From Desertimonas flava (lineage in GTDB: Bacteria > Actinomycetota > Acidimicrobiia > Acidimicrobiales > Ilumatobacteraceae): DNA of 64,000 nucleotides. Every line of letters starts with the position of its first letter. Positions within the stretch are counted from its first letter, which is position 1. Position numbers and translations under genes: made by a program. The notes beneath the pieces were generated by a model that did no database searches, was not told the DNA's origin, and saw nothing but the letters and a program-made list of their open reading frames with translations. The DNA is taken from the NCBI RefSeq assembly GCF_003426815.1, contig NZ_QKYK01000006.1:124001-188000 (forward strand). The letters are read 5' to 3'. Positions 1 to 19,663 of the stretch are shown piece by piece.

Positions 1-1072
1 GCTGCAGGGTGCCGCGGCGGCGATGATGGCACCGCAGGTGCTCACGATCGTGCAACGCCGGCTGCCCAGCGAGCGGCAGCCGATGGCCTTCGCCCTGTAC
101 GCCAGCGTGATCTCCGGCGCGGTCGTGGCCGGCCAGGTGCTCGGCGGCGTGCTCGTCGACGCCGATCTGTTCGGCTGGTCGTGGCGGACGGTGTTCCTCG
201 TCAACGTGCCGATCGGCGTGGCGGTGCTGTCGGTCGTGCCCCGGTGCGTCCCCGAGACCGACGAGCTCACCCGGCGCCGTCTCGACATCACGGGCGTCGG
301 ACTGCTCGCCGCCACGGTGGCGGCGATCATCGTGCCGCTGGTCGTCGGCCGCGAGACCGGCTTCTCGTGGGGCTTGTGGGTCCTGCTCGCCGCTGCCGTG
401 CCCCTCGGCGCGCTGTTCGCCCGTCACGTGAGCGTCCGCCAGGCCGTCACCGGTGACGCCCTCATCGATCTGGCGCTGCTGCGCCGGCCGGCGGTGGCCC
501 TCGGCTTCGGCTCGGTCGTGGCCCAGATGGCGGCCTACGGGGGGATGCTGTTCGCCATCACGTTGCACCTGCAACGCGGTCTCGGCTTCTCCCCCATCAG
601 GTCCGGGCTCTCCCTCGTCACGTTCGCCGTGGCCTTCGCCATCAGCAGCCTCGCCGTGCCGCGCCTGTCGGCGGCCGCTCGGCGGGCGGCACCCGTCGCC
701 GGGCTCGTCGTGACCGCCGCCGGGTTCCTCGTCGCGGCCTGGCTCGCCCGCGAGGGCCACTGGAACATGGCGACGACGGGGCTCGCCTTCGCCGTCGTCG
801 GTGGCGGATTCGGGTGCGGCTACAGCCCGGTCGTCAGCCGGACGGTGGCCACGGTGCCGCGAGCGCGCGCTGCCGACGCCAGCGGCATGTTCACCACGCT
901 CAACCAGCTCGCCTTCGCCATCGGGGTGGCGGCCGTCGGCAGCGTCTACCTCGCCGCCCGGTCCGGGCCCACGGCCGGCGACAGCGGCTCGGCGATGGCG
1001 GTGACGTTCGTCGTCGCCGCCGCCCTCATGCTGGTCGCCGCAGGCGCCGCCGCCACTCAGCGCGCCGACTGA
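1..1072 (+). CDS. MFS transporter, DHA2 (EmrB/QacA) type, 5' end missing
   Basis: C-terminal part of a drug:H+ antiporter-2 family exporter of the inner membrane. The frame is open from base 2 (LQGAAAAMMAPQVL), so the true start lies before the window. The first visible residues are the family signature of the LQG..AA..PQVL type, followed by the WSWRTVFLVNVPIG loop motif typical of 14-TM DHA2 proteins, then about eight hydrophobic segments to the stop. Roughly the first 110-130 residues of a usual 470-500 aa protein are missing. Family is clear; the exported compound is unknown. The next gene follows after 59 bases in the same direction, but no link in function is evident. Confidence 0.85.
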   Translation, partial: LQGAAAAMMAPQVLTIVQRRLPSERQPMAFALYASVISGAVVAGQVLGGVLVDADLFGWSWRTVFLVNVPIGVAVLSVVPRCVPETDELTRRRLDITGVGLLAATVAAIIVPLVVGRETGFSWGLWVLLAAAVPLGALFARHVSVRQAVTGDALIDLALLRRPAVALGFGSVVAQMAAYGGMLFAITLHLQRGLGFSPIRSGLSLVTFAVAFAISSLAVPRLSAAARRAAPVAGLVVTAAGFLVAAWLAREGHWNMATTGLAFAVVGGGFGCGYSPVVSRTVATVPRARAADASGMFTTLNQLAFAIGVAAVGSVYLAARSGPTAGDSGSAMAVTFVVAAALMLVAAGAAATQRAD

Positions 1073-1131
1073 CCGCCCGGCCCGCCGACCCGCATTCGAG
1101 CCACTGATGCGTCGGTCCGTACGCTCGCGCC

Positions 1132-1839
1132 ATGTCCTCCAGTGTGTCCAGCACGATCGCCGACGGCACGGCGACCATCACCCTCGACGACGGCAAGGCC
1201 AACGCCCTGCGACCCGAGACGCTGAGCGCGATCCACGCCGCGCTCGACGAGGCCGAGGCGGCGGAGGCCGTGGTGGTGCTGACCGGGCGGGACGGGATCT
1301 TCTCGGCCGGCTTCGATCTCGACATCATCCGCGCAGGTGGGGAGGGCACGGCATCGCTGGTGCGCGGCGGCATGGAGCTCGCCCTCCGGCTGCTGTCGTT
1401 CCCGGCGCCGGTGGTGGTGGCCTGCAGCGGCCACGCGATGGCGATGGGTTCCTTCCTCCTGCTGGCCGGCGACTACCGCCTCGGCGTCGCCGACAGCGGT
1501 CACCGGATCAGCGCCAACGAGGTGGCGATCGGCATGACGATGCCGCGAGCGGCCATCGAGATCTGTCTCCAGCGTTTGACTCCGGCGGGCTACAACCGCG
1601 CCATCCTCCTCGCCGACGTGTTCACGGGTGACGGCGCGGTCGCCGCCGGGTTCCTCGACACCACCGTGCCGGCCGGATCACTGGCCGACGCCGCCGCAGA
1701 GCGGGCGGCCGCCTTCGCCGGCCTCTCCCGGCGGGCCCACACCGAATCCAAGCTCCGTCTTCGCCAGGCGATGCTCGACCGGCTCGCCGCCGCCATCGAA
1801 GCCGACGACGTGTACCTGCGATCGCTCGTCGTGCGATAG
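1132..1839 (+). CDS. enoyl-CoA hydratase/isomerase family protein (crotonase)
   Basis: 235 aa single-domain crotonase-fold protein acting on an acyl-CoA thioester (hydration, isomerisation or hydrolysis). The two oxyanion-hole segments are visible: FSAGFDL near residue 61 and GHAMAMGSFLLLAGDYR near residue 102. The NEVAIGMTMP segment near residue 127 carries a glutamate at the position of one of the two catalytic acids of true hydratases; the second is not obvious, so the exact reaction is uncertain. At 235 aa it is slightly shorter than the usual 255-270 aa. ATG start at 1132. The next gene begins 9 bases after the stop and may be co-transcribed. Confidence 0.85.
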   Translation: MSSSVSSTIADGTATITLDDGKANALRPETLSAIHAALDEAEAAEAVVVLTGRDGIFSAGFDLDIIRAGGEGTASLVRGGMELALRLLSFPAPVVVACSGHAMAMGSFLLLAGDYRLGVADSGHRISANEVAIGMTMPRAAIEICLQRLTPAGYNRAILLADVFTGDGAVAAGFLDTTVPAGSLADAAAERAAAFAGLSRRAHTESKLRLRQAMLDRLAAAIEADDVYLRSLVVR

Positions 1840-1848
1840 ACCATTGCC

Positions 1849-2517
1849 ATGGACGTCGCAGAGCGCCTCACCGCCATCGATCCGGCCACCAGAGAGCGGC
1901 TGTTCGCCAACCGGGTCACCACCGTCGACGAGCTGCACGAGCTCAACGGCGTGCCCCACCCGCTGATCCTCGAGAAGCACACGACGCAGCTCACGCCTCT
2001 GCTCGCCGACTTCATCACGATGTCGCCGCTGTTCTTCCTCGCCACGTCCAACGAGGACGGCTCCACCGACGTCTCGCCGCGGGGCGACCCCGCCGGCCAG
2101 GTGAGGATCCTCGACGAGCGCACCATCTTCTTCGCCGACCGCGCCGGCAACCGGCGCCTCGACTCCTTCCGCAACATCGTGTCGCGTCCCTCGGTGGGCC
2201 TCGCCTTCCTCGTCCCGCCCGTCGACGAGCTCGTCCGCGTCAACGGCCGCGCGACGATCACCAGGGACGAGGAGTTCCTCGCCGCCATGACGATCCGCGG
2301 CCGGACTCCCAAGCTGGGCGTGCTCGTCGAGATCGACGAGGTGTACGGCCACTGCTCGCGAGCCCTGCTCCGCAGCGCGGTGTTCGACCCGGCGACGTGG
2401 ACCGACCCCGACACCGTGCCGACGCTGAGCGCGATCTACTGCCAACAGAAGAACCTGCCGGCCCCCGACGAGTCGGGCGGCAAGCGGCAGGAGGACTACC
2501 GCAACGAACTCGGCTGA
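1849..2517 (+). CDS. PPOX-class FMN-dependent protein, DR_2398/TIGR04025-like
   Basis: 222 aa split-barrel flavin-binding protein of the pyridoxamine-5'-phosphate oxidase superfamily. The pattern FFLATSNEDGSTDVSPRGDPAG (in pieces: LATSNEDG near residue 64, SPRGDPAG near 75) followed by DRAGNRRLDS and LRSAVFDP matches the DR_2398-type subfamily, from which a cytosolic FMN-dependent oxidoreductase role follows; substrate is not known for the family. ATG start, 9 bases after the crotonase stop. Its 3' end faces the next gene, and a perfect 18-bp-arm palindrome (2527-2563) lies between them. Confidence 0.85.
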   Translation: MDVAERLTAIDPATRERLFANRVTTVDELHELNGVPHPLILEKHTTQLTPLLADFITMSPLFFLATSNEDGSTDVSPRGDPAGQVRILDERTIFFADRAGNRRLDSFRNIVSRPSVGLAFLVPPVDELVRVNGRATITRDEEFLAAMTIRGRTPKLGVLVEIDEVYGHCSRALLRSAVFDPATWTDPDTVPTLSAIYCQQKNLPAPDESGGKRQEDYRNELG

Positions 2518-2526
2518 ACGAGGTGG

Positions 2527-2563
2527 CGGGTAACAGATGGTGCCAGGCACCATCTGTTACCCG
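2527..2563. repeat. palindromic hairpin IR1, TGCCAGGCA-core family
   Basis: Perfect inverted repeat with 18-bp arms around a single central A (position 2545). Outer arm starts CGGGTAACAGATGG; centre GTGCCAGGCAC. It lies between the convergent stops of the genes at 1849-2517 and 2580-2999. It shares 32 of 33 central bases with IR2 (3055-3093). No U-tract follows, so a Rho-independent terminator is possible but not typical; a REP-like dispersed repeat is the alternative. Confidence 0.9.
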
Positions 2564-2579
2564 AAGCCGTGGCCCGGCG

Positions 2580-2999
2580 TCAGTCGAACCAGGGCCCGAT
2601 GCCACCGATCCGATCGACGCGAATACGTGTCAGCCATCCGGGCGGAGCGTCCGCCGGCGGAAATCCCGAGTCCGGGGCGAGGGTCGCTGCCAGCTCGGCG
2701 AGTAACTCGGGCGCTCCACCTTCCTCGATGCGCGCCGTTCCGGCGACCGACAGGTAGTGCTGCATCAGCCCGTCGTTTTCGGCCGACACGACGGTCAGCG
2801 CGACCCGACCATCGCGACGGACGTTTCGCACCTTCCGGTGCTCGCCGAAGTGGCCGCAGACCAGCTCATCATCGTCGCCGTCCGATCGGAGGGCGACCCA
2901 GACCAGGCTCACTTGAGGACTGCCGTCCTCGTTGAGCGTGACGAGGGTTGCGTTGGCACCGGCACCGATGAGGTCACGCGCAGCGTCGGGAAGTTTCAC
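2580..2999 (-). CDS. PPOX-class F420/flavin-dependent protein (Rv1155-like)
   Basis: 139 aa small split-barrel protein, the usual length of actinobacterial PPOX-class F420-dependent enzymes. ATLVTLNEDGSPQVSLVWV near residue 17 is the typical first strand pair, and HRKVRNVRRDGRVALTV near residue 54 the conserved basic stretch that binds cofactor phosphate in this family. F420 or FMN binding is inferred from family only. Start is GTG at 2999 (MKLPDAARDL); the upstream ribosome-binding site is weak. The gene is bracketed by two near-identical palindromes, IR1 downstream and IR2 upstream. Confidence 0.8.
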   Translation of the reverse strand: MKLPDAARDLIGAGANATLVTLNEDGSPQVSLVWVALRSDGDDDELVCGHFGEHRKVRNVRRDGRVALTVVSAENDGLMQHYLSVAGTARIEEGGAPELLAELAATLAPDSGFPPADAPPGWLTRIRVDRIGGIGPWFD

Positions 3000-3054
3000 A
3001 CCCGTCTTCGACGTCCGCTGACTCCGAGATATTCCCGTGCGTCGGCATCACAGC

Positions 3055-3093
3055 GGCGGTAACAGATGGGGCCAGGCACCATCTGTTACCGCC
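3055..3093. repeat. palindromic hairpin IR2, TGCCAGGCA-core family
   Basis: Inverted repeat with 19-bp arms around a central A at 3074 and one mismatch (G3070 opposite A3078). The outer arm GGTAACAGATGG is the same as in IR1; the core reads GGCCAGGCACC because of one T-to-G change. It lies in the 111-base gap downstream of the stop of the FAH-family gene and upstream of the PPOX gene start, both on the minus strand. Confidence 0.88.
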
Positions 3094-3110
3094 CGCGGTC
3101 GGAGGCTCGC

Positions 3111-4049
3111 TCAGAAGCCGGTGCGGAGACGGTGCACCGGCTTCGACGGCAGGATCTCGTGCTCGATGAAGCCGAGCTCCTGCACCTCGAGACGCACCAC
3201 GTCGCCCGGCTGCAGCCAGCCGCGGAACTTGTCGGGGCCGTCGACGGCGAAGTGCTCGACGAGGCACCCGGTGGGCACGGTGCCCGAGCCGATCACCTCG
3301 CCGGGCAACAGGCGCGTGCCTCGCGACGCGTACGAGAGCACCTCGCCCCACGACCAGTCCATCTGGTCCATGAAGCCGTGGCTCACCTTCTCGCCGTTGA
3401 CGTACCCGGTCATCTCGAGGTGGTACGACGGGCCCGACTTGAACGGTTCGAGCTCGTCGGTGGTCACCAGCATCGGGCCGAGCGTGTTGGCTCCGTCCTT
3501 GCCCTTCGAGGGTCCGAGGCTGAGTCGCATCTCGTGGAACTGGAGATCGCGAGCGCTCCAGTCGCAGAAGATCGTGAACCCGGCGATGTGGGACGCCGCC
3601 TCGTCGGGATGGAGGTCGCCACCCTCGCGGCCGATCACCGCGCCGACCTCCAGCTCGTAGTCGAACTGCTCGGAGCCGGGCGAGATCGCCACCTTCTCGC
3701 GCGGCCCGATCACCCCGGTGGTGTTGGAGAAGTAGAACGCCGGGATCTCCTCCCACGCGGGGTCGATCTCGCCGCCGATCGCCGAGCGGGCGTTGCGGAG
3801 GTGGTCGAGGAACGTGAGGCAGTCACGGATCTGGCCGGGACGGATCGGCGGGCCGAGCGCCGCCTCGTCGAACGGCACGACGTCCGTCGGCCGCTCTCTG
3901 GCCTGCTGGGCCGCGGCGTCCATCTTCTCGCCGTCGTCGCCGAGCAGGTCGATCACCCGGCTTCCGGCGGCGAGCCCGTGGACGGCCCCGTCGAGGACGA
4001 GCCCGGCTCGCTCGTCTCCGTCACCGGATCGGTACATCACCCATCGCAT
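3111..4049 (-). CDS. fumarylacetoacetate hydrolase (FAH) family protein
   Basis: 312 aa. FAH-fold enzymes cleave C-C bonds in beta-diketo acids, or isomerise or decarboxylate oxo-acids, at the end of aromatic and heteroaromatic pathways. Visible hallmarks are FDYELEVGAVIGREGGDL near residue 130 (metal-ligand glutamates), FTIFCDWSARDLQF near residue 160 (metal-ligand aspartate), and the C-terminal GSGTVPTGC and LQPGDVVRLEVQELG motifs. ATG at 4049 is chosen because AAGGGAG lies about 7 bases upstream. Its start overlaps the 3' end of the ligase gene by 13 nt, so the two are translationally coupled and probably in one catabolic pathway. Cytosolic; substrate unknown. Confidence 0.87.
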   Translation of the reverse strand: MRWVMYRSGDGDERAGLVLDGAVHGLAAGSRVIDLLGDDGEKMDAAAQQARERPTDVVPFDEAALGPPIRPGQIRDCLTFLDHLRNARSAIGGEIDPAWEEIPAFYFSNTTGVIGPREKVAISPGSEQFDYELEVGAVIGREGGDLHPDEAASHIAGFTIFCDWSARDLQFHEMRLSLGPSKGKDGANTLGPMLVTTDELEPFKSGPSYHLEMTGYVNGEKVSHGFMDQMDWSWGEVLSYASRGTRLLPGEVIGSGTVPTGCLVEHFAVDGPDKFRGWLQPGDVVRLEVQELGFIEHEILPSKPVHRLRTGF

Positions 4050-5755
4050 GATTCGCTCCCTTGCTGATTGTGGTCGTGGTTCGAGTTGTCGGTCGAGTTG
4101 CTCTTCGAGTTGCTGTTCGAGGCGTGGCTCGGAGTGGTGTTCGAGTCGTGGCCCGGATCGTCGGCGTCGAGCTCGTCCCCGTCGGCGGCAGCCGTGGGTT
4201 CGGCGCCGAGGAGGAACTTGCGGATCTTGCCCACCGACGTGCGCGGCAGGTCGTCGACGAAGTGGTACGCCGCGGGGCGCTTGGACGGGGCGAGGCGCTC
4301 GGCGACCCACGCGCGGAGCTCGTCGTCGAGCTCGGCCGGCTTCGGCGCGCCCTCCGCGGCCACGACGTAGGCCACCGGCACCTCGTCACGCATCGGGTCG
4401 GGGCGTCCGACCACGGCCACATCGCCGACCGCCGGATGCTCCGCGAGGACGTGCTCCACCTCGACCACCGACACGTTCTCGCCGGCGACCTTCAAGACGT
4501 CGCTGCGACGGCCGGCGAAGTGGAACATGCCGCGGCCGTCCACGGTGGCCCGGTCACCTGTGTCGAACCAGACGAACCCGTCGGCGGTCTCCTCGACGAT
4601 CGCCGCGGCGGTGGTGTCGGGGTCGTCGAGGTACTCGGCGAAGACGGTGACGCCGGGGACGCCGCCGACGTGGATAGCCCCCTCCTCGTCGAGGGCGACG
4701 GCTGTCCGCGACGGTCCGACGACCCGGACGGCGCAGCCGAGCGTGGGTCGACCGATCGCCGACGGCACGGCGCCGACCAGCGGATTGGACAGGACGGCGG
4801 GCACCGTCTCGGTCATGCCGTAGATCTGTCGAGGCGTGCAGCCGAGCAGCTCGGCCGTCCTGGCGTATTGGTCGGCCGACAGGTTCTGGGCGAACCACGC
4901 GTTGCGCAGCTTCAGTGGCGCCGTGTCCTCAGGCGTCCGGGCGAGGATCATGCGGATCGGCGCGGCGAAGAGCGATGCGTGGGTGACCTCGTGCCGTCGC
5001 GCCTGCTCGACGAACCGTGACGCCGAGAAGGCGCCGATGAGCGCCACGCTGGCCCCGGCCGCGATCGCCGCGGCGAACGAGTAGTACTGCGCGTTGGCAT
5101 GGAACAGCGGCAGCACCACGAGTTGCCGGTCGAAGCGCGTGAGCGACGACGAGGCGGCCATGACCAGTCCGGCGTAGGCGTAGTTGGCCTGGGTGAGCAC
5201 GACACCCTTCGGCGCCGACGTGGTCCCCGAGGTGAACATCACGGCGAGCCGGGTCATCGGATCGACCGTTGCCGGCACCGAGACCGGCTCGGCAGTGGCG
5301 AGCCGGCCGAGGGTGACATCGCGCTCGTCGACGGCGACGACCTCGGTCGTCACGCCCGGCGCCAGGTCGCACGCGGCGAGGAGGTCGGCCTCGCGCCTTG
5401 GCGTCGTGACGGCGACTCGTGGAGTCGTGCGGCGCAGGTGCTCCGCCAACTCGGCGACGCCGGCGCGCGGATCGCTCGGGACGATCCAGGCACCGAGCGC
5501 CGAGCAGGCGAGCCACACGGCGACGAACGCCACGGTGTTGGGCAGCACCAGATGCACGGCATCACCGGCGCCGACGCCTCGGGCCGTCAGCCCTCCCGCG
5601 ACCCGGCGCACGAGCCGGTCCATGTCGCCGTAGGTGAAGTCGCTCACCGCGCCGTCGACGTCCTCGAAGATCAAGAACGGGCGACGGCCGCACTCGTCGA
5701 CGGCGAGCTGCCACAGCTCGGCGAAGCCCGGTACGGCGGGCGCTCTCGGCGTCAT
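4037..5755 (-). CDS. AMP-forming acyl-CoA ligase (ANL superfamily)
   Basis: 572 aa. Activates a carboxylic acid to its CoA thioester through an acyl-adenylate. The phosphate-binding loop TSGTTSAPKGV (near residue 175), YGMTET (near 323), the WFDTGDR aspartate (near 423) and the A10 lysine in RTSVGKIRKFLL (near 518) are all present, so it should be active. ATG at 5755 is chosen for the GGGGGAT box just upstream rather than the far longer open frame. Odd feature: after the A10 motif comes a 45-50 residue acidic, then Asn/Ser-rich tail (SNSKSNSTDNSNHDHN) encoded by short imperfect DNA repeats and overlapping the FAH gene start. First gene of a minus-strand pair divergent from the peptide-type ABC importer. 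Confidence 0.9.
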   Translation of the reverse strand: MTPRAPAVPGFAELWQLAVDECGRRPFLIFEDVDGAVSDFTYGDMDRLVRRVAGGLTARGVGAGDAVHLVLPNTVAFVAVWLACSALGAWIVPSDPRAGVAELAEHLRRTTPRVAVTTPRREADLLAACDLAPGVTTEVVAVDERDVTLGRLATAEPVSVPATVDPMTRLAVMFTSGTTSAPKGVVLTQANYAYAGLVMAASSSLTRFDRQLVVLPLFHANAQYYSFAAAIAAGASVALIGAFSASRFVEQARRHEVTHASLFAAPIRMILARTPEDTAPLKLRNAWFAQNLSADQYARTAELLGCTPRQIYGMTETVPAVLSNPLVGAVPSAIGRPTLGCAVRVVGPSRTAVALDEEGAIHVGGVPGVTVFAEYLDDPDTTAAAIVEETADGFVWFDTGDRATVDGRGMFHFAGRRSDVLKVAGENVSVVEVEHVLAEHPAVGDVAVVGRPDPMRDEVPVAYVVAAEGAPKPAELDDELRAWVAERLAPSKRPAAYHFVDDLPRTSVGKIRKFLLGAEPTAAADGDELDADDPGHDSNTTPSHASNSNSKSNSTDNSNHDHNQQGSESCDG

Positions 5756-5851
5756 CGGCGATCCCCCATGGCCGGATCCCGGTCCGGCTCGTGTCGTTCC
5801 AACATGCTCAGTCCCGACCCTCGTGTGGACTGCCGTCCGAGACAGGGTCTT

Positions 5852-5871
5852 GAAATCTATAGATTGTCGAA
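5852..5871. promoter_or_regulatory. candidate GntR operator, copy 1
   Basis: Read on the minus strand the site is of the form TTnGACAATCTATnnnTTTC, the same as 14752-14771 (17 of 22 bases shared with flanks). It contains the 12-bp perfect palindrome AATCTATAGATT (5854-5865) and is followed by the palindrome AATGTACATT (5870-5879), centres 15 bp apart. It sits in the divergent promoter region between the acyl-CoA ligase (minus) and the ABC binding protein (plus). The most likely ligand is the GntR protein at 14060-14734 (inference). Confidence 0.6.
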
Positions 5872-5915
5872 TGTACATTGACACAGGGCAACGCATTCGA
5901 CAAGGGGGAATTGCC

Positions 5916-7445
5916 ATGCGCACACGACGTGTTCGCTGTCTGATCGCGGCCGTAGCCGCCGCCGTCGCCGCGACGGGGTTCGGCACTGCCGGGGCCACCA
6001 GTCCACCGGCGGCGTCATCCGACGCCGTCATCCGCTACCAGTGGGGAACGCCGGGCGGGAGCAACTACGACCCGCAGCAGGCCTTCAACCAGTTCGCCAA
6101 CATCTACCTGTACCCGGCGTACGACCGCCTCACCGAGCTCACGCCCGAGGGCGAGGTCATCCCGATGCTCGCCGAGTCGTGGGAGTTCGCCGAGAACGAC
6201 ACCGTGCTCCGCCTGGTGCTGCGTCAAGGCGTCGTGTTCCACGACGGCGAGCCGTTCAACGCCGAGGCCGTGAAGGCCAACATCGAACGTGGCCAGACGC
6301 TGGAGACGTCGGCCGTCAAGCCCGACCTGGCCTCCATCGAGGAGGTCGTCGTGGTCGACGAGCACACCGTCGAGCTCCATCTGTCGTCGCCGGGCTCGTC
6401 ACTTCCCGCCCTGCTGTCCGACCGGGCCGGGATGATGATCAGCCCCGCCGCGTTCGACAATCCCGACATCGACCTGATGCCGGTCGGCGCCGGCCCCTAC
6501 CAGGTGGTCGAGCACGTGCCCGGCTCGGTGATCAGCTTCGAGCGCTTCCCCGACTACTGGAACCCGGAGATGCAGACGCTCGGTGGGGTCGAGATCACGA
6601 TGCAGCTCGACCCCGACGCCCGGCTGCGGGCCGTCGCCGACGGCCAGGCCGACGGGACGACGCTCAACCCCGATCAGTTGTCAGCCGCCGAGGACGCCGG
6701 GCTCACCGTGCAGACCCGTGAATCGGCCGGAGCGTTCCTGCTGTTCCTGAACATGGCGAGCCCGGGGCTCGACACGCTCGAGGTGCGCCAGGCGATCAGC
6801 ATGGCGATCGATCGGCAGGGTCTCGCCGACGCCCTCCACGCCGGGCTCTGCACGCCGACGAACCAGATCTTCCCGTCGAGCTACTGGGCGGCCAGCCCGG
6901 ACGTGGTGACCGACAGCTTCGACGTGGAGGCCGCCCGTGCCCTGCTCGAAGAGGCCGGGTACGGCGACGGACTCGCGCTGAGCGCCGTCGTGGTCAACGT
7001 GCCGTTCTACGTGGCCCAGCTCGAGGCGCTCCAGGCGATGCTCGGCGAGATCGGCATCGACCTCGAGGTGACGGCCCTCGAGCCCACCGAGCTGCTGTCC
7101 CGGTTCAGCACCGGCGACGCCGACATGTACTTCACCCAGTACCCGGGCAGCGTCGACCCAGCCAAGACGGTCGCGTCGATCTTCGCCGCCCAAGCCGCGC
7201 TGAACCCCGGCCACTACAGCAACGCCGATGTCGACGCCCTGGCCCTCGAGGGCCTGTCAATCGTGGCCCAGGAGGAGCGGGCCCCGATCTACCAGGAGCT
7301 GTCCGCGGCCGCGGCCGCCGATTACTTCCACATCCCGATCTGCAGCCCGCAGGGCGTCTTCGTCCTCACCGATGCCGTGGGCAACTTCACACCCACGCTG
7401 AGCGGATCGGTCGATTTTCGTGGGGTGACCCTGGCGGGGTCGTGA
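5916..7445 (+). CDS. ABC transporter substrate-binding protein, family 5 (peptide/nickel type)
   Basis: 509 aa periplasmic-type (exported) solute receptor of the SBP_bac_5 family, normal length. The N-terminus MRTRRVRCLIAAVAAAVAATGFG is a signal peptide; I see no lipobox cysteine, so a lipoprotein is not evident. The core shows WEFAENDTVLRLVLRQGVVFHDGEPFNAEAVKAN-type features (FHDGEPFNAEAV near residue 108), VGAGPYQV near 190 and FERFPDYWN near 207, all family signatures. ATG at 5916 follows AAGGGGGA with 7-base spacing. First gene of a five-gene importer operon; permease gene starts 3 bases after its stop. Ligand unknown; family members bind peptides, nickel chelates, opines or sugars. Confidence 0.92.
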   Translation: MRTRRVRCLIAAVAAAVAATGFGTAGATSPPAASSDAVIRYQWGTPGGSNYDPQQAFNQFANIYLYPAYDRLTELTPEGEVIPMLAESWEFAENDTVLRLVLRQGVVFHDGEPFNAEAVKANIERGQTLETSAVKPDLASIEEVVVVDEHTVELHLSSPGSSLPALLSDRAGMMISPAAFDNPDIDLMPVGAGPYQVVEHVPGSVISFERFPDYWNPEMQTLGGVEITMQLDPDARLRAVADGQADGTTLNPDQLSAAEDAGLTVQTRESAGAFLLFLNMASPGLDTLEVRQAISMAIDRQGLADALHAGLCTPTNQIFPSSYWAASPDVVTDSFDVEAARALLEEAGYGDGLALSAVVVNVPFYVAQLEALQAMLGEIGIDLEVTALEPTELLSRFSTGDADMYFTQYPGSVDPAKTVASIFAAQAALNPGHYSNADVDALALEGLSIVAQEERAPIYQELSAAAAADYFHIPICSPQGVFVLTDAVGNFTPTLSGSVDFRGVTLAGS

Positions 7446-7448
7446 CGG

Positions 7449-8393
7449 ATGCTCCGACTGACCCTGCGCCGGCTCGCCGCGCTGATCCCACTCCTGTTCA
7501 TCGTCACGGTGGTCGTGTGGGGTCTCCTGCTGCTCATTCCGGGGGATCCGGCCCAGTCGCTGGTGGGCGACTCGGCCACCCCCGAGCAGCTCGCCGCGGT
7601 GCGTGAGGAGTTGGGCCTGAACGACCCCGCCTACGAGCGGTACGGCCGCTGGTTGGGCGGGGTCGTCCGGGGTGATCTGGGCACCTCGCTGTTCACGAGC
7701 TACCAGGTGACCGACGCGATCACCGACCGCCTGCCCGTCACGCTGTCGCTGGTCGCCTGCTCGTTCGTGCTGGCGACCATCCTCGGTATGACGGCGGGCG
7801 TGGTCGCCGCCACCCACCGCGGCCGGTGGCTCGACCGGCTGCTGACCGTGGGCACGTCGGTGGGCGTGGCCGTTCCCAACTTCTGGCTCGGTCTCGTCCT
7901 CGTCACCTTCTTCGCCATGAAGCTCGACCTCTTCCCGGCCGGCGACTACGTCGGACTGACCGAATCGCCGCTCGGTTGGCTGCACCACATCACCCTGCCG
8001 GCGGTCACGCTGGCGTTGGCCGCCGCGGCCGAGATCGCCCGCCAGATGCGCGCCAGCATGGTCGACGTCCTCGAGCGCGACTACGTGCGGACCCACCGCG
8101 CCCGGGGCATGCCCGAACGAGCCGTCGTCGGCCGGTACGCCTTGAAGAACGCGGCGATGCCCGTGGTCACGGTCGCCGGCCTCCAGGTCGCCCGCCTCTT
8201 CGGCCTGTCGACGATCATCGAACAGATCTTCAACATGCAGGGCGTCGGCCAGCTCGCCGTCGACAGCGTCTTCAAGCGCGACGTGCCGATGATCCAGGGG
8301 GTCGTCCTCACGATCACCGTCGTGGTCGTGCTCACGAACCTCGTCGTCGATGTGTCGTACGGCCTGCTCAACCCCAAGGTTCGAGAATCGTGA
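7449..8393 (+). CDS. ABC transporter permease, DppB/OppB type
   Basis: 314 aa inner-membrane permease with six predicted membrane segments, the first at residues 8-30 (LAALIPLLFIVTVVVWGLLLLIPGD). The periplasmic segment ending in GLNDPAYERYGRWLGGVVRGDLGTS is the typical OppB-like signature, and the EAA-type cytoplasmic loop is visible as DYVRTHRARGMPERAVVGRYALKNA near residue 212. ATG at 7449. Stop overlaps the next permease start (GTGA). Forms the heterodimeric channel with the following permease. Confidence 0.92.
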   Translation: MLRLTLRRLAALIPLLFIVTVVVWGLLLLIPGDPAQSLVGDSATPEQLAAVREELGLNDPAYERYGRWLGGVVRGDLGTSLFTSYQVTDAITDRLPVTLSLVACSFVLATILGMTAGVVAATHRGRWLDRLLTVGTSVGVAVPNFWLGLVLVTFFAMKLDLFPAGDYVGLTESPLGWLHHITLPAVTLALAAAAEIARQMRASMVDVLERDYVRTHRARGMPERAVVGRYALKNAAMPVVTVAGLQVARLFGLSTIIEQIFNMQGVGQLAVDSVFKRDVPMIQGVVLTITVVVVLTNLVVDVSYGLLNPKVRES

Positions 8394-9271
8394 CGGCGGT
8401 CGCCATCGCGGCCACGCCGGCGCGCGGCGAGAGCCCGGCGCGGCGGTTCGTCCGCCGATTCCGGCACGATCGCGCCGCGATGACCGCCAGCGTCGTCCTG
8501 CTGGTCATCGTGGTGTGCGCCGTCGCCGCTCCCCTCCTGGCCCCGTACGACCCCGACGCGCAGTCCTTGACCGACCGGCTGCAGGCCTTCAACGGCGATC
8601 ACTGGCTGGGCACGGACGACCTCGGTCGCGATGTGCTGTCCCGGCTGCTGTTCGCCTCCAGGGTCTCGCTGATCGCCGCCGTCCAGGCCACCGCCGTCGG
8701 CGTGGTGCTCGGCGTGCCGACCGGCCTCGTCGCCGGCTACGCCCGGGGCGTGATCGACAACGTGCTCGGCCGCATCGCCGACGCGATGATGTCGATCCCC
8801 GCCCTGCTTCTCGCCCTGGCCATCGTCGGCGTGCTCGAGCCCAACCTCACCAGCGCGATGATCGCGATCGGCATCGTGTACGCCCCACGCCTGTTCCGCA
8901 TCACGCGGTCGGCCGCGCTGTCGGTCCGCGAGGAGACGTTCGTCGAGGCGGCGTGCAGCGTCGGGGCGGGGCCGTGGCGCATCGTCACCGGCCACGTGCT
9001 GCCCAACGTGCTCTCGCCGCTGATCGTCCAGGTGTCGCTCTCGATGGGCTTCGCCATCCTCTTCGAGGCCAGCATCAGCTTCCTCGGCCTCGGCGTGCAG
9101 CCCCCCGATGCGTCGTGGGGTTCGATGCTGGGTCGCTCGACACGCTTCTTCGAGCAGAGCCCGCATCTCGTCGTCGTGCCGGGCGTGATGATCCTCGTCA
9201 CCGTCCTCGCCTTCAACGTGATCGGCGACGGCATCCGCGACTCGCTCGGCACGGAGGTGCGGCGCGGATGA
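8390..9271 (+). CDS. ABC transporter permease, DppC/OppC type
   Basis: 293 aa inner-membrane permease. A short N-terminal cytoplasmic arm is followed by a first membrane helix (VVLLVIVVCAVAAPLLAPYDPD near residue 34) and the OppC-type signature HWLGTDDLGRDVLSRLLFASRVSL near residue 73. The EAA loop reads REETFVEAACSVGAGPWRIVTGHVLPN near residue 181. I chose the GTG at 8390, which overlaps the upstream stop by 4 nt (GTGA); this gives the family's usual length. Its own stop overlaps the next gene's ATG (ATGA), so the operon is tightly coupled. Confidence 0.9.
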   Translation: MTAVAIAATPARGESPARRFVRRFRHDRAAMTASVVLLVIVVCAVAAPLLAPYDPDAQSLTDRLQAFNGDHWLGTDDLGRDVLSRLLFASRVSLIAAVQATAVGVVLGVPTGLVAGYARGVIDNVLGRIADAMMSIPALLLALAIVGVLEPNLTSAMIAIGIVYAPRLFRITRSAALSVREETFVEAACSVGAGPWRIVTGHVLPNVLSPLIVQVSLSMGFAILFEASISFLGLGVQPPDASWGSMLGRSTRFFEQSPHLVVVPGVMILVTVLAFNVIGDGIRDSLGTEVRRG

Positions 9272-10344
9272 GTGCCGACGACGCCCGGACCACCCCTCCC
9301 ACCGCCGACAGCGTCACCGTCGGGCGGTCGCCGCTGTTGTCGGTCGAGCACCTCGAGGTTCGCTTCGCCACCGAGTACGGCGTCGTCCCCGTCGTCGAAG
9401 ACGTGTCGTTTCACGTCGAGCCGGGCGAGATCGTCGGACTCGTCGGCGAGTCGGGGTGCGGCAAGTCGGTGACCTCGCTCGCCATCATGCGGCTGATCCC
9501 GTCGCCGCCCGGCCGCATCACCGCCGGCCGGATCGTCTTCGAGGGCCGCGACCTCCTCACCCTGACCGAGCACGAGATGCAATCGGTGCGCGGTGACCGG
9601 ATGGCGATGGTGTTCCAGGAGCCGATGACCAGCCTCGACCCGGCGTTCAAGGTCGGCGAGCAGATCGCCTCGACCTACCGCCGCCATTGCGGCGGCACGA
9701 AACGAGCGGCCTGGGAGCGAGCGGTCGAGGTGCTCGACCTCGTCGGCATCCCCGGCGCGCGGGCGCGGGCAGGCGACTACCCGCACACGTTCTCGGGAGG
9801 CATGCGCCAGCGGGTGATGATCGCCATGGCCCTCTCGTGCGGGCCGTCGCTGCTGATCGCCGACGAGCCGACCACGGCGCTGGACGTGACCATCCAGGCG
9901 CAGGTGCTCGATCTCCTGCGCGACCTCCAGTCGCGCCTCGGCATGGCCGTCGTCTTCGTCACCCACGACCTCGGTGTGGTGTCGGAGATGTGCGACCGGG
10001 TCGTCGTCATGTACGCCGGGCAGGTGGTCGAGTCGGCGCCCACGCGCGAGCTGTTCGACGATCCGGCGCACCCCTACACCCACGGCCTGCTCGACTGCCT
10101 GCCGTCCGAGCACATCGGCGAGCGCCTGCGCCCGATCCCGGGTTTCGTGCCGCCGGCGGGTCAGATGCCGGCGGGATGTCGATTCCACCCGCGGTGCCCG
10201 CACGCGCAGCCCGGTCGTTGCGACACCGACGCCGTCGTCCTCGGTCCGGCCGGACCCGGGCGCCTCGCCCGATGTGTCCGCATCGGCGAACTCGTCCGCG
10301 AGGAGGCCGCCTCGCCGCTCGTCACGGACGGGGCGGTGCGATGA
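9268..10344 (+). CDS. ABC transporter ATP-binding protein, DppD/OppD type
   Basis: 358 aa ATPase of the oligopeptide/nickel importer. Walker A GESGCGKS near residue 63, Q-loop [10 protein letters not shown] near 119, ABC signature FSGGMRQR near 175, Walker [13 protein letters not shown] near 195 and switch histidine VTHDLG near 232 are all present. The C-terminal oligopeptide-transporter domain has the [15 protein letters not shown] cysteines that resemble the Fe-S or metal site seen in this family. ATG at 9268 overlaps the permease stop by 4 nt. A paralogous ATPase follows with the same overlap. Confidence 0.93.
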
Positions 10345-11474
10345 CCGTCACCCTCGAGGCCTCCGGCCTGGTCAAGTCGTTCATCGCCCGCCGGGACGTG
10401 CTCGGTCGCCCGACCCGGCGGGTCGCAGCCGTCGCCGACGTCTCGCTCGCGGTCGGTGCGGGTGAGACCCTCGGTCTGGTCGGCGAGTCGGGCTCGGGCA
10501 AGTCGACGGTGGGCCGGCTGGTCGCCCAGCTCATCTCCGCCGATGCCGGGACCGTTCAGCTCGCCGGCCGCGACCTCGGTGCGCTGCGCGGCAGGCAGCT
10601 GAGGCAGGCCCGGCGCGACGTGCAGGTGGTCTTCCAGGATCCGTTCGCGTCACTCGATCCGTCGTGGATCGTCGGCAACATCGTCACCGAGGGGCTGCGG
10701 GCCCAGCGCCTCGTCGCCCGCGGCGATCGCGAGGAGCGGGCGGTGGAGCTGCTCGAGCTCGTCGGGCTGCGGGCCGACCACGTCCGCCGATATCCCTACG
10801 AGTTCTCGGGCGGGCAGCGTCAGCGCATCGCCATCGCCCGGGCGCTCGCCCTCGAGCCCAAGGTGTTGATCTGCGACGAGGCGGTGTCAGCGCTCGACGT
10901 GTCCACCCAGGCAGCGATCCTCGTCACGCTCGAGGACCTGCAGGACCGCCTCGGGCTCAGCTACCTGTTCATCTCGCACGACCTCGGAGTCGTCCGCCAC
11001 GTCAGCGACCGCATCGCCGTGATGTATCTCGGCCGCATCGTCGAGACCGGGCCCGCCGCCGAGATCTACGACGATCCGCGGCACCCCTACACCCAGGCCC
11101 TGCTGTCGGCGATCCCTCAGGTGCGTACGGCGCGGCGCGAGCGCATCGCCCTGTCCGGCGACCTTCCTGACCCGAGCGACCCGCCCACCGGCTGCGCCTT
11201 CCACACCCGCTGCCCGGTCGTCATCGAACGCTGCCGGACCGAGCGCCCCGCCCTCGGTCCCGTCGCCGGTTCGCCGGGACGGGTGGCGGCGTGCCACCTC
11301 GTCGCCGACCACAGCAGTCCGCCCCCCACCGACCTCGACCATCCCACCGATCCCACCGTCTATCTCGGCCCGGTCCCGAACCGGGCCAAGGAGGAGCCAT
11401 GTCCGACCACCACGCCGCCCACGCCGCCCACGTCAGTGTGCCCGCCGGGCCCGACACCAACGGCCACGTGCTGA
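10341..11474 (+). CDS. ABC transporter ATP-binding protein, DppF/OppF type
   Basis: 377 aa second ATPase of the importer. Walker A GESGSGKS near residue 48, Q-loop FQDPFASLDP near 99, signature FSGGQRQR near 155, Walker B VLICDEAVSALD near 175, H-loop ISHDLG. The Walker B region has DEAVSALD in place of the commoner DEPVSALD. C-terminal CAFHTRCPVVIERC motif is present. After the normal family end (ACHLV) a further 45-residue Pro/Thr-rich tail runs to 11474 and overlaps the start of the MBL-fold gene by 76 nt in another frame; the tail is probably a by-product of the overlap. ATG at 10341 overlaps the previous stop (ATGA). Confidence 0.92.
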   Translation: MTVTLEASGLVKSFIARRDVLGRPTRRVAAVADVSLAVGAGETLGLVGESGSGKSTVGRLVAQLISADAGTVQLAGRDLGALRGRQLRQARRDVQVVFQDPFASLDPSWIVGNIVTEGLRAQRLVARGDREERAVELLELVGLRADHVRRYPYEFSGGQRQRIAIARALALEPKVLICDEAVSALDVSTQAAILVTLEDLQDRLGLSYLFISHDLGVVRHVSDRIAVMYLGRIVETGPAAEIYDDPRHPYTQALLSAIPQVRTARRERIALSGDLPDPSDPPTGCAFHTRCPVVIERCRTERPALGPVAGSPGRVAACHLVADHSSPPPTDLDHPTDPTVYLGPVPNRAKEEPCPTTTPPTPPTSVCPPGPTPTATC

Positions 11475-12439
11475 CCGACCAGCATCTCGCCCACCTGCAC
11501 CCCGGCACCATCTACAAGAAGGGCCTCCACGAGGTCGGGGACGGGTGCTTCGCATGGCTCGAACCCGACGGCAGCTGGGGCTGGAGCAACGCCGGTCTCA
11601 TCACCGGCGACGGCGTGTCGATCCTCGTCGACACGCTCTTCGACGTGCCACTCACCCGCAACATGCTCGACGGCATGGCGTCGATCACGTCGACCAAGCC
11701 GATCTCCACGGTGTTCAACACGCACTCGAACGGCGACCACTGGTTCGGCAACCAATTGCTCGCCGATCGCGAGATCATCGCCTCGGCCAAGGCCGCGGCC
11801 GAGATGCCCGAGGCCGGACCGGAGCGCCTCGTCGCCTTGCGCGAGCTGCCCGGACCAACGGGCGACTTCGCACGCGAGATCTTCGGCCCGTTCGACTGGA
11901 CCGACTGCACGCCGGCGCTGCCGACGCGGACGTTCGACAAACAGCTCGATCTGCAGATCGGCGGCGTCGACGTCGTGCTCTACGAGCTCGGGCCGGCCCA
12001 CACCAATGGCGACACCGTCGCGTGGGTCCCGTCGACCAAGACGTTGTATGCCGGCGACCTGCTCTTCATCGGCGGTACCCCGATCATCTGGGCCGGCCCA
12101 CTCTCCAACTGGGTGGCGGCGTGCGACTTCATGCTGTCGCTCGAGCCCGAGTTCGTGGTGCCCGGGCACGGCCCCGTGACTGACGCCGGCGGCATCCAGG
12201 TCGTGCGTGACTACCTCACGTACGTCGACACGGAGAGTCGCAAGCGCTTCGAGGCCGGCATGAGCGCCGAGGAGGCGATCCAGGACATCGATCTCGGCGA
12301 CTTCGGCCTGCTGGCCGAGCACGGCCGCATCGCCCAGAACGTGCTCTCGGTGTTCTACGAGCTCGACCCGGAGACGCGCCGCCGCGACGTGCTCGAGGTG
12401 TTCGCCGAGATCGGCCGCCTCGAGGGCTTCACCGGCTGA
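11399..12439 (+). CDS. MBL-fold metallo-hydrolase
   Basis: 346 aa metallo-beta-lactamase-fold hydrolase. The metal motif, normally HxHxDH, reads THSNGDHWFGN near residue 115, with Asn where the second His usually stands; later ligands look kept in GPAHTNGD (near 199), AGDLLF (near 219) and PGHGPV (near 259). The HSNGDH form occurs in a distinct MBL subgroup, so the protein is probably active but may bind metal differently. N-terminus is His-rich (MSDHHAAHAAH). ATG at 11399 is preceded by AAGGAGG with good spacing, inside the tail of the ATPase gene, so it is the last gene of the importer operon. Likely hydrolyses an ester, lactone or thioester in this pathway (inference). Confidence 0.85.
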   Translation: MSDHHAAHAAHVSVPAGPDTNGHVLTDQHLAHLHPGTIYKKGLHEVGDGCFAWLEPDGSWGWSNAGLITGDGVSILVDTLFDVPLTRNMLDGMASITSTKPISTVFNTHSNGDHWFGNQLLADREIIASAKAAAEMPEAGPERLVALRELPGPTGDFAREIFGPFDWTDCTPALPTRTFDKQLDLQIGGVDVVLYELGPAHTNGDTVAWVPSTKTLYAGDLLFIGGTPIIWAGPLSNWVAACDFMLSLEPEFVVPGHGPVTDAGGIQVVRDYLTYVDTESRKRFEAGMSAEEAIQDIDLGDFGLLAEHGRIAQNVLSVFYELDPETRRRDVLEVFAEIGRLEGFTG

Positions 12440-12458
12440 CCATCAACGCCGCCGCCGG

Positions 12459-12491
12459 GTCCCGAGATAGTGCCAGGCACTATCTCGGGAC
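12459..12491. repeat. palindromic hairpin IR3, TGCCAGGCA-core family
   Basis: Perfect 16-bp arms around a central A at 12475. Centre AGTGCCAGGCACT, outer arm GTCCCGAGAT. It lies between the convergent 3' ends of the MBL-fold gene and the second ligase gene. Only the central nine bases match IR1 and IR2; the outer stem is different yet still perfectly paired. Confidence 0.9.
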
Positions 12492-12509
12492 TCCTCGCAT
12501 GGAGTCAGC

Positions 12510-14063
12510 TCAGTTCTGGCCGTCGGGGCCGAGCAGCCGCTGCAGGTCCCGCTTGAGCACTTTGCCGAGCGTGTTGCGGGGGAGCTCGTCGATGACGACG
12601 AGACGCTTGGGCACCTTGTAGTCGGCGAGCCGCTCGGCGGCCCAGGCCAGCAACTCGTCAGGGGTCGCGTCGTCGCCGGGCTGCAGCACGACGAAGGCGA
12701 CGATCTCCTCGTCGCCGGCGGCATTGGCCGCCCCGACGACCGACGCGTCGAGCACCGACACGTGCTCGTAGAGCACCCGCTCGATCTCCGGCGCCGACAC
12801 GTTGTCGACGCCCGGCTTGATCAGTTCCACGGCTCGTCCGAGGAAGCGGAAGCTGCCGTCGGGCTCCTGCACCATGCGATCGCCGGTGCGCAGCCACCCG
12901 TCGCGGAGCACGAGGGCCGTCTCCTCGGGACGGCGGTAGTACCCCGCCATGAGCGTCCGGCCCGGCTCCCCCTGGACGACCAGCTCGCCGTCCACGCCGG
13001 GCGCGACGTCACGGCCGGCCCGATCGACGAGCTTCACCGTGGCCCACAGCGCCGCCCGGCCGAGCACGTCGGCGTCGCGCGGCCCGTACGGAGCGTCGGC
13101 GATCGTCGGGGCGATCGTCTCGGTGAGGCCGTACACCTGCACCGCCGGAGCGTCGAAGCGCGCTTCGATCTGCTCCCGTTCGACGGACGTGAGGTGCTGG
13201 GCGAACAGGAACAAACGCAGCGTCGACGGCGCGGCGTGCGCGGGTGGGTCGACCGACAGGAGGCTGCGGGCATGGACGGCGAACAGGCTCGAGAGCGTCG
13301 CACCGGTCGCATCGACGGCGGCGTCCCACGAGCCCGGGTCGAACCGGTCGAGCAGGGCGACCGAGGCCTGCGACGAGATGGCCGACATCAGCGAGTAGCC
13401 GAGAGCGTTGAGGTGGAACAGCGGCAGCGACACGAGCCACCGGTCGTCGGGGCGCAGCCGCACGTGGGCGGCGACCGCTTCACCGGAGAACAGCAGATTG
13501 CGATTGGAGAGCATCACGCCCTTGGGCCAGCCCGTCGTCCCGGACGTGTAGAGCACGGCGGCGAGGTCGCCGTCGCGCCCGTCATGGTCGGGGGCACTGG
13601 CCGGCTCGGCGTCGCGCAGATCCTCGAGGCGGCCGACGCCCTCGGGCGCGGTCGCCGCCCCGACGCTGATCACGTGGACGATCTCGGGAGCCATCTCGCG
13701 GGCGGCGAGCACGACGTCCACACCGATATCACCGACGATGCTCACAGCGCACTCGGCGTGCGACGCGATGTAGGCGACGTCGTCGGTCGTGGACGCCGGG
13801 CTGGTGGGCACGAGCACCCCGCCGAGCCGGTTGACGGCGAAGAGGCAGGCCACGAACTCGATGGAGTTCGCCAGCTGCACGTGCACCGCCGAGCCCGACC
13901 CGACACCCAGACCGGCCAGCGCCGCCGCCGTGCGATCGACCAGCGAGTCGACAGCGGCGTAGCTCCAGTGCGCTCCCCCACCCGCCACGTCGACCACGAA
14001 CGTCGCGTCGCCGGCGACGGCGGCAACCTCCCGGAGCCGCTGCGAGATCGTCACCGCCATCAT
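12510..14063 (-). CDS. AMP-forming acyl-CoA ligase (ANL superfamily), second of the island
   Basis: 517 aa. Motifs: TSGTTGWPKGV near residue 174, YGLTET near 312, the WLRTGDR aspartate near 392, and the A10 lysine in RNTLGKVLKRDL near 502. It resembles the ligase at 4037-5755 in layout and in the FAQHL/FAQNL segment before the adenine motif, so the two are probably paralogs working on related acids in one pathway. ATG at 14063 (a second ATG follows at once) has GGAGGGGGG immediately upstream, within the end of the GntR gene; the two overlap by 4 nt. Cytosolic. Substrate unknown. Confidence 0.9.
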   Translation of the reverse strand: MMAVTISQRLREVAAVAGDATFVVDVAGGGAHWSYAAVDSLVDRTAAALAGLGVGSGSAVHVQLANSIEFVACLFAVNRLGGVLVPTSPASTTDDVAYIASHAECAVSIVGDIGVDVVLAAREMAPEIVHVISVGAATAPEGVGRLEDLRDAEPASAPDHDGRDGDLAAVLYTSGTTGWPKGVMLSNRNLLFSGEAVAAHVRLRPDDRWLVSLPLFHLNALGYSLMSAISSQASVALLDRFDPGSWDAAVDATGATLSSLFAVHARSLLSVDPPAHAAPSTLRLFLFAQHLTSVEREQIEARFDAPAVQVYGLTETIAPTIADAPYGPRDADVLGRAALWATVKLVDRAGRDVAPGVDGELVVQGEPGRTLMAGYYRRPEETALVLRDGWLRTGDRMVQEPDGSFRFLGRAVELIKPGVDNVSAPEIERVLYEHVSVLDASVVGAANAAGDEEIVAFVVLQPGDDATPDELLAWAAERLADYKVPKRLVVIDELPRNTLGKVLKRDLQRLLGPDGQN

Positions 14064-14734
14064 CCCCCCTCCAGATGCGCATACCCCTCGGCGAACAACT
14101 CGATCTCGGCTCGGACAGCAGCCGCAGCCGGCTTGGCCTTCCCGCCCGTCGCCGCCGCCGCCAGACGACCGATCAGGTCGGCGAGATGCTCCCGGTCGAG
14201 ACTCTCGAGCGTCGCTGCCCGGTACCTGGCGTGCTGATCACGCACGGACGTGGCGTAGCGGCGCAGCCGGACTGAGTCGCAGGTGCTGGTGAGCGTGGCG
14301 TAGAAGGCGCGGTAGGCGTTCTCGCTGACCGCGACGACGTGGCGGCGCGCGCCGAGGGCGGCGGTCAGGTCGGCTGCCGACGATGCCACCGCCGCGACCC
14401 ACGTGTCCGACGGGTGCTCGAGCGCATGGACGACGCACGCCGGCTCGAGCAGCACGCGCAGCTCGGTGAGCTCGCGGCTGTCCGTCGCCGACAGCTCGGC
14501 GACCCGGGCGCCGCGCTGCGGGATGAACTCGACGAGGCCCTCTCCGGCGAAGCGATGGAGCGCTTCGCGCAGCGGCGTGGGGCTCACCTGGAAGCGCTCG
14601 GAGAGCTGCGCCGTCAGCAAGCGCTCGCCCGGTGCCAGCTCCCCGTTGAGCAATGCCGTGCGCAGTTGCTCCTCGACCCATTCGATACGGCTGATCGGAC
14701 CGTCGGCGATGACTGCCTCCTGCGGACGCGCCAC
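14060..14734 (-). CDS. GntR family transcriptional regulator, FadR/FCD subfamily
   Basis: 224 aa DNA-binding regulator. Winged helix-turn-helix at residues 15-75, with LLTAQLSERFQVSPTPLREALHRFAGEGLVEF being the GntR recognition region, and a C-terminal all-helical FCD effector domain (residues 85-215) that usually binds a small organic acid. First gene of an operon with the acyl-CoA ligase (4-nt overlap) and divergent from the SMP-30 gene. A 20-bp site in its upstream region (14752-14771) recurs in the divergent promoter of the ABC importer (5852-5871), so it probably controls itself, the importer, both ligases and the hydrolases. Confidence 0.9.
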   Translation of the reverse strand: MARPQEAVIADGPISRIEWVEEQLRTALLNGELAPGERLLTAQLSERFQVSPTPLREALHRFAGEGLVEFIPQRGARVAELSATDSRELTELRVLLEPACVVHALEHPSDTWVAAVASSAADLTAALGARRHVVAVSENAYRAFYATLTSTCDSVRLRRYATSVRDQHARYRAATLESLDREHLADLIGRLAAAATGGKAKPAAAAVRAEIELFAEGYAHLEGG

Positions 14735-14751
14735 CCGGACGGCGGCGGCGA

Positions 14752-14771
14752 TTTGACAATCTATCTGTTTC
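14752..14771. promoter_or_regulatory. candidate GntR operator, copy 2
   Basis: Plus strand reads TTTGACAATCTATCTGTTTC. The 10-mer GACAATCTAT and the flanking TT and TTTC match the site at 5852-5871. It lies in the 98-base divergent region between the GntR gene (minus, start 14734) and the SMP-30 gene (plus, start 14833), where an autoregulatory operator would be expected. Confidence 0.6.
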
Positions 14772-14832
14772 GCCCGAGGGGCCGCGTGGAAGACAGACGG
14801 CAGGGGACGTCGACGATCGTTACCCTGCGGGC

Positions 14833-18143: not shown

Positions 18144-18711
18144 TCAGGCTCATCGCCTCGGCGCGGGAGCGGGCGTCATCGCGGAAGAGGCCGCGGACGG
18201 CCGACGTCACCGTGAGCGCACCGGGCTTGTGCACGCCACGGATCGACATGCACAGGTGCTCGGCCTCGAGCACCACGATGACACCCGTGGGTGCCAACGC
18301 CTCCTCCATCGCCGTCGCGATCTGCGTCGTGAGACGCTCCTGTACCTGAAGTCGCCTGGCGAAGCCGTCGACGAGCCGGGCCAGCTTCGACAGGCCGGTC
18401 ACCCGCCCGGTCGGTCCGGGGATGTAGCCGAGATGGGCGCGACCGATGAACGGCAGGAGATGGTGCTCGCACATCGACGAGAAGGCGATGTCGCGAACGA
18501 TGACGATCTCGTCGTGGTCGGCCTCGAACGTCGTCTCGAGGTGCATCGCCGGGTCCTCGCGCATACCGGCCGTGACCTCGGCATACATGCGGGCCACGCG
18601 ACCCGGGGTGGCGAGCAGCCCGTCGCGGCTCGGGTCCTCACCGATCGCGGCCAAGAGCTCACGGACGGCGGCCTCGATTCGGTCGTGATCGGCAGAGACG
18701 ACGTCGGTCAT
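18121..18711 (-). CDS. folE: GTP cyclohydrolase I
   Basis: 196 aa, usual length. Converts GTP to 7,8-dihydroneopterin triphosphate, the first step of tetrahydrofolate (and pterin) synthesis, as a cytosolic homodecamer. Zinc-site and active-site motifs are plain: [21 protein letters not shown] near residue 70, RLQVQERLT near 118 and [12 protein letters not shown] near 150. I use the ATG at 18711 ([10 protein letters not shown]), which lies 4 bases after the folP stop, rather than the longer open frame. Co-transcribed with folP; the rest of the folate genes are not in this window. Confidence 0.95.
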
Positions 18712-18715
18712 CGGG

Positions 18716-19606: not shown

Positions 19607-19663
19607 CGGTTGCGGAGGGTACTCGGGGAACAACGGAGGCAGCTCTGTGGTTGAGTGTGACCG

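Follow-up and report, generated by a model that had tools for sequence, protein, structure and literature searches.

Two near-identical palindromes bracketing a PPOX-class gene belong to a genome-dispersed hairpin family, and the bracket is probably a coincidence

Y1 HUH enzymes, such as TnpA_REP and the transposases of IS200/IS605, cut and rejoin single-stranded DNA with hairpin ends. RAYT-like genes with terminal inverted repeats (TIRYT, TIRtrons) have been described as well, and the portions of that paper dealing with the repeats describe families of moderate size, some with self-complementary repeats, and the sequence GGGGWSAS in some of the terminal inverted repeats only (Di Nocera 2013; PMC3733652). 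In a later survey, most TIRYT were placed in subclass 2.1, which has a C-terminal HTH, and the passages of the survey on this subclass report no REP-like sequences near its genes (Quentin 2018; PMC6006769). IS elements that target REP sequences, including ISPpu9, are reported in parts of two other papers (PMC1525189, PMC8450116). In a literature search that covered few subscription papers, the term 'TIRYT' was found only in PMC3733652 and PMC6006769, and among the matches listed nothing joined Acidimicrobi- or Ilumatobacter with REP or RAYT.

In the window (the whole 64,000-nt stretch of Desertimonas flava DNA that was analysed), two 33-nt palindromes at 2529-2561 (IR1) and 3058-3090 (IR2) are identical at 32 of 33 bases, as the initial annotation had reported. 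The annotation was also right that this near-identical pair flanks one small PPOX gene only, since the minus-strand gene at 2580-2999 is the sole called gene between them (Table 1); the mechanical ORF list also holds overlapping frames there. The motif GTAACAGRTGG, with at most one mismatch, occurs four times in the window, every time inside IR1 or IR2, compared with 0.35 expected occurrences, and at least four were reached in none of 100 shuffles of the window. RNA folding z-scores relative to shuffled sequence were -5.9 and -6.3 for the two strands of IR1 and -4.7 for IR2. Because no shuffle reached the motif count and both palindromes fold far better than shuffled sequence, the observation stands. 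The two had further been said to have the same outer stem, and this is true of its pairing but not of its sequence (cggg/cccg in IR1, gcgg/ccgc in IR2). Similarly, the distinction drawn between this pair and two other hairpins of the window, IR3 and IR4, applies to the arms, which differ, but not to the 11-nt core GTGCCAGGCAC, which is common to all. A search of Rfam with positions 1-20000 of the window returned no match. With respect to the gene itself, its description as a flavin/F420 PPOX protein agrees with a TIGR03618 score of 95 bits (cut-off, 79), and its supposed lack of relation to its neighbours holds at subfamily level only, because the left neighbour at 1849-2517 is also of the PNPOx_N superfamily.

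Table 1. Coordinates of the features discussed (positions in the window, except where a locus is named)
Feature	Position	Strand	Remarks
MSMEG_1061-type FMN PPOX flavoprotein gene	1849-2517	+	TIGR04025, PNPOx_N PF01243
IR1, class-A REP-like palindrome	2527-2563 (extended stem); family unit 2529-2561	.	exact consensus 33-mer
Rv1155-type F420-dependent PPOX-class oxidoreductase gene, 139 aa	2580-2999	-	TIGR03618; between IR1 and IR2
IR2, class-A REP-like palindrome	3055-3093 (extended stem); family unit 3058-3090	.	one T to G off consensus
Fumarylacetoacetate hydrolase (FAH) family gene	3111-4049	-	PF01557
IR3, class-B hairpin	12457-12493, centre 12475	.	core GTGCCAGGCAC; convergent gap; two stops 36 and 35 nt away
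IR4, class-C hairpin	57709-57739, centre 57724	.	core GTGCCAGGCAC
RAYT-A, HUH/Y1 transposase gene	L002:152-946		contig other than the window's
RAYT-B, HUH/Y1 transposase gene	L001:1465-2319		

The genome containing the window (G000) is a 6.2-Mb draft of 73 contigs, in which the core GTGCCNGGCAC occurs 182 times, compared with 18 times for the reversed control; counts in 60 relatives range from 0 to 73. The class-A hairpin is found at 43 places in the genome (35 with no mismatch and eight with one), the listing being complete to one mismatch as counted on the better side of each hairpin, and class B comprises 47 exact 25-mers, with just two more places within a limit of three mismatches. The core reads GGTGCCAGGCACC in class A and AGTGCCAGGCACT in class B, and the hairpins of both classes are near-perfectly symmetric around one central base. 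Flanks were examined for 39 of the 43 class-A copies and 33 of the 47 class-B copies. Outside the stems of these copies no base is strongly conserved and there are only mild, symmetric preferences (in class A, G at -18 in 25/39 and C at +18 in 24/39), and thus no unpaired GTAG/CGTC tag is present at the hairpin foot. IR1 and IR2 are indeed copies of one element, as had been proposed, in the sense that both belong to this genome-dispersed class-A family; they are, moreover, no more alike than other class-A members. Among the 38 sampled class-A copies other than IR1, 20 are identical to it at 33/33 positions and 10 match it at 32/33, and because 20 of 38 are identical, the likeness of IR1 and IR2 is uninformative about the pair.

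Two intact copies of class C and one of class D were found, and that these classes have decayed is only a guess; no cognate transposase gene for either class was found in the genome. Six of 14 further cores in the sample pair at seven or fewer of the 11 arm positions, and some of these six are probably chance cores. One convergent gap (L190, C7:97410-97727) holds class-C, class-B and degenerate A-like hairpins, and at C10:73549/73579 the B hairpins form a 30-nt tandem. In the genome of a relative, a perfect palindrome around GGGTCTGACCC (L062:2872), of another arm class but the same kind, lies near that genome's own PPOX-type homologue. An IS end adjoins exactly half a hairpin, immediately after the central base, at 7/7 copies found, and the half-hairpins cut in this manner are located at the ends of contigs C6, C7, C8, C9, C38, C43 and C67 (L182-L188), six of them belonging to class A and the seventh being D-like. 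Only one end of this IS is assembled, to about 100 nt, before the contig stops, and a search for its other end gave no match. The IS targets the centre of REP-like hairpins.

The placing of the hairpins was assessed with gene calls from a codon-usage caller trained on the window. By these calls, 36 of 39 class-A and 32 of 33 sampled class-B hairpins are intergenic, and 3/39 and 1/33, respectively, are inside called genes. The centre of the intergenic hairpins is at most 60 nt from a stop codon in 33/36 cases for class A and 30/32 for class B, compared with a window baseline for the same rule of 2.2% of all positions and 40% of intergenic ones; divergent gaps, which make up 42% of intergenic positions, hold no intergenic copy among the 36 A and 32 B hairpins. 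In 6/39 class-A copies a TAA stop is provided by the hairpin itself, and in class B a stop is at most 16 nt from the centre in 11/33 copies, eight of these stops being a TAG inside the hairpin. Where only one gene is adjacent, the central base showed no clear bias in its orientation towards that gene (9 T and 4 A in class A; 6 T and 5 A in class B). These data demonstrate a repeat family whose arms are mainly of two classes, A and B, and whose copies are placed just 3' of stop codons. IR1 and IR2 each follow this rule, and they do so for separate genes: the stops of 1849-2517 and 2580-2999 are 28 and 35 nt, respectively, from the centre of IR1, which lies in a convergent gap, and the FAH-family gene has its stop 37 nt from the centre of IR2.

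Two genes of the genome, RAYT-A and RAYT-B, score over the cut-off of PF01797, and each is bracketed by its own hairpin class, RAYT-A by A and RAYT-B by B. On the 3' side of RAYT-A a full A hairpin stands 10 nt past the stop, and on the 5' side the start is preceded by an A half-hairpin that an IS end has interrupted at the centre; RAYT-B is flanked on each side by B hairpins. The B hairpin downstream of RAYT-B (L001:2280-2319) is read within the transposase frame, near the C-terminal end. The two transposases, 264 and 284 aa in length, are 52% identical and both carry NHYH and YIHRNP motifs; with NF047646, the NCBI equivalog for REP-associated tyrosine transposases, both score 52 bits, below the cut-off of 80. 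A structure model of RAYT-A has a mean pLDDT of 88.7 and a helical C-terminus, and its best match among solved folds is 4er8, TnpA_REP bound to a REP hairpin (E 1.4e-6; TM 0.48 over the query). The N-terminal part of the family profile likewise matches 4er8 (E 8.4e-5), the sole transposase among seven profile matches, and the C-terminal part matches DnaA chains (best E 1.8e-7). Bac_DnaA_C was detected at E of 1 or below in 7/18 aligned members and is absent from RAYT-A itself at that level.

A comparison of flanks covered 99 transposase loci, of this genome and others, with 84 loci scorable and 15 not. The main test, in which a palindrome was not demanded, replaced a strict palindrome-only version that was positive in 4/80 loci compared with 0/160 controls. 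By the main test, both flanks share a segment with a score of at least 16 in 56/84 loci, compared with 5/168 swapped flanks. Among these 56 loci, to which this genome's own two belong, GGGTCA[AG] was found in 38 and the published GGGGWSAS in 14; GGGGWSAS is absent from this genome's own hairpin cores, which read as given above for classes A and B. For loci of the same order together with those of named Acidimicrobiales/Ilumatobacter, 17 of the 18 scored reach 16 (the own two included), and eight of the segments are at least 75% self-complementary; for all other loci, 39/66 reach 16, the shared segments are all inverted and none attains 75% self-complementarity. Six of the 16 scored relatives of the order or named group have a palindrome with C[A/T]G at its centre (L087, L088, L093, L095, L106 and L119). 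At L093, from a relative of the same family, the RAYT locus lies between near-perfect palindromes of 31-33 nt centred on TCTCAGAGA, a core that differs but likewise has CAG at its centre.

Altogether, the bracket around 2580-2999 is best explained as a coincidence of two dispersed class-A REP-like copies spread by RAYT-A, and not as a cassette, with a probability of roughly 80%. Mobility of the hairpins is probable, with a transposase that processes hairpins as the agent of their spread. IR1 and IR2 would each be a separate copy of a class-A element that is short, untagged and near-perfectly palindromic, and RAYT-A, a predicted single-strand HUH/Y1 transposase encoded on another contig, would spread this class by cutting and rejoining the single-stranded A hairpin, as reported for TnpA_REP. 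RAYT-A would act on class-A arms and RAYT-B on class-B arms, the core being common to both, and copies would settle, or find tolerance, at the 3' ends of genes and hardly elsewhere, possibly persisting there because they are harmful in other places. IR1 would thus represent a hit in the convergent gap of two PPOX-type genes and IR2 a hit after the FAH-family gene, and the gene at 2580-2999 would owe its bracket to separate hits at two neighbouring 3' ends. A two-part code can be suggested only tentatively, and is rather doubtful: the core GTGCC-A/T-GGCAC would be read by the conserved Y1 core of both enzymes and the class arms by their diverged C-terminal DNA-binding part, such that the two paralogues (52% identical) keep two hairpin populations, both aimed at gene 3' ends. 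Classes C and D may be orphans of lost enzyme members.

It is unlikely that the two hairpins are instead the ends of a composite cassette, in which a second A hairpin accompanied the PPOX gene into the convergent gap and on whose ends RAYT-A would act. The gene is compositionally odd, its GC3 being 0.757 compared with 0.91-0.96 in its neighbours and the third lowest among 47 validly framed genes of the window (a hand-made list of 48 hand-picked genes, from which the out-of-frame row 5918-7445 was left out), and the homologues that match it best among 60 relatives are from outside its own family (55, 48 and 49% versus 44%). On account of this low GC3 and these homologues, the gene may well have been gained, which would suit a cassette, as does the similar bracketing of the RAYT genes themselves. 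However, the gene is single-copy in its own genome, and 41 other A hairpins stand apart from it; the initial annotation, which had proposed a cassette with recent copies of one element as its ends, had itself named hairpins apart from the gene as evidence against this. Furthermore, IR1 and IR2 each obey the stop-codon rule for a different neighbour, and their flanks show neither duplication nor a target repeat: the longest stretch common to the left of IR1 and the right of IR2 is 4 nt, and outside the putative IR1-gene-IR2 unit no target repeat longer than this was found. Homologues were searched for in the own genome and 60 relatives for 2580-2999, and in 248 genomes of the order for each of 1849-2517 and the FAH-family gene; among the matches listed, none of 67 homologue loci (about 1.5 kb per side, and no same-genus genome) held two of the three genes. 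L064 is a distant acyl-CoA-synthetase match with 25% identity.

The cassette is also weakened by the expectation that such a bracket arises by chance about one time in five. When 41 hairpins were placed at random in non-divergent gaps, with gap weights and a gene list of the analyst's choice, the mean number of A-bracketed genes was 0.23 and at least one was obtained in 21% of runs; a single A-bracketed gene is therefore unremarkable, since about 0.2 are expected by chance. It should be noted, however, that two class-A pairs less than 600 nt apart were observed compared with 0.18 expected, and four same-class A/B pairs less than 1500 nt apart compared with about one, both expectations being for uniform placing. 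The four close pairs are one local duplication, one 30-nt tandem, RAYT-B's own bracket and IR1-IR2; the IR1-IR2 pair adds to a mild excess of close same-class pairs, and this counts against the chance reading.

The hairpins could also be selected host signals, acting as bidirectional transcription ends or as mRNA 3' stabilisers, and not mobile repeats at all, although this is very improbable. Their near-exclusive 3' placing with no divergent-gap copy in the sample, along with their very stable folds, is what such signals would show; however, a terminator scan of 1800-4200 found no T-tailed hairpin, and no terminator-type T tract, at IR1 or IR2. In addition, each of the two arm classes has a transposase gene to go with it, and some hairpins supply a gene's stop (TAA by A in 6/39, TAG by B in 8/33), which fits insertion. 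A secondary role of the hairpins as RNA ends may exist. Least probable of all is the initial annotation's other proposal, a local tandem duplication of one hairpin around the inserted gene, because, although local cases exist in the genome (C67:10373/10607, with shared flanks, and the 30-nt tandem at C10:73549/73579), IR1 and IR2 agree at only 30% over their 56 flanking bases, below the mean of 35% (sd 5.6) over all pairs of the 39 A copies, whereas the C67 pair, a true local duplication, agrees at 73%, the highest value among A pairs, the next best pair reaching 54%.

With the bracket read as a chance meeting of two dispersed copies, a striking local arrangement is reduced to what a dispersed hairpin family would ordinarily produce, and a false cassette claim is avoided. 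This genome, with its two enzymes and the two hairpin classes that have a core in common, offers a natural pair that could serve as a model for palindrome recognition by HUH transposases of the TIRYT kind, and the same pair bears on why copies survive almost only beside stop codons. If the enzymes are of subclass 2.1, part of the gap left by the 2018 survey, in which REP-like repeats were not reported near those genes, would be filled.

Compared with known systems, the hairpins resemble REP sequences and their RAYT/TnpA_REP (REPtron, e.g., in E. coli) in being short palindromes in many copies, mostly 3' of genes, and in that the HUH/Y1 transposase gene is flanked by its own repeat class (for RAYT-A, on one side by an IS-cut half). 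Unlike those of the REPtron, the hairpins described here have no unpaired GTAG/CGTC tag and are near-perfectly symmetric around one central base, and the enzymes, at 264 and 284 aa, fall below the NCBI REP_Tyr_transpos cut-off (52 versus 80 bits). The adjoining of an IS to an exact half-hairpin in 7/7 copies is similar to the REP-targeting IS elements described in parts of the reports on them (PMC1525189; ISPpu9, PMC8450116). The nearest kind, as compared by features, is TIRYT/TIRtron: the Y1 core is shared with TIRYT/TIRtron (PMC3733652) and TnpAY1 subclass 2.1 (PMC6006769) as the relevant portions of those papers describe them, and the C-terminal part of the family profile, which is like the DnaA DNA-binding domain, may be a further likeness. 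Dissimilar from TIRYT/TIRtron, the ends described here are full palindromes present in 43 and 47 copies, with cores other than GGGGWSAS. What is apparently new is the link of near-perfectly palindromic repeats that lack a tag to a TIRYT-like enzyme, in two parallel enzyme-hairpin sets with one core.
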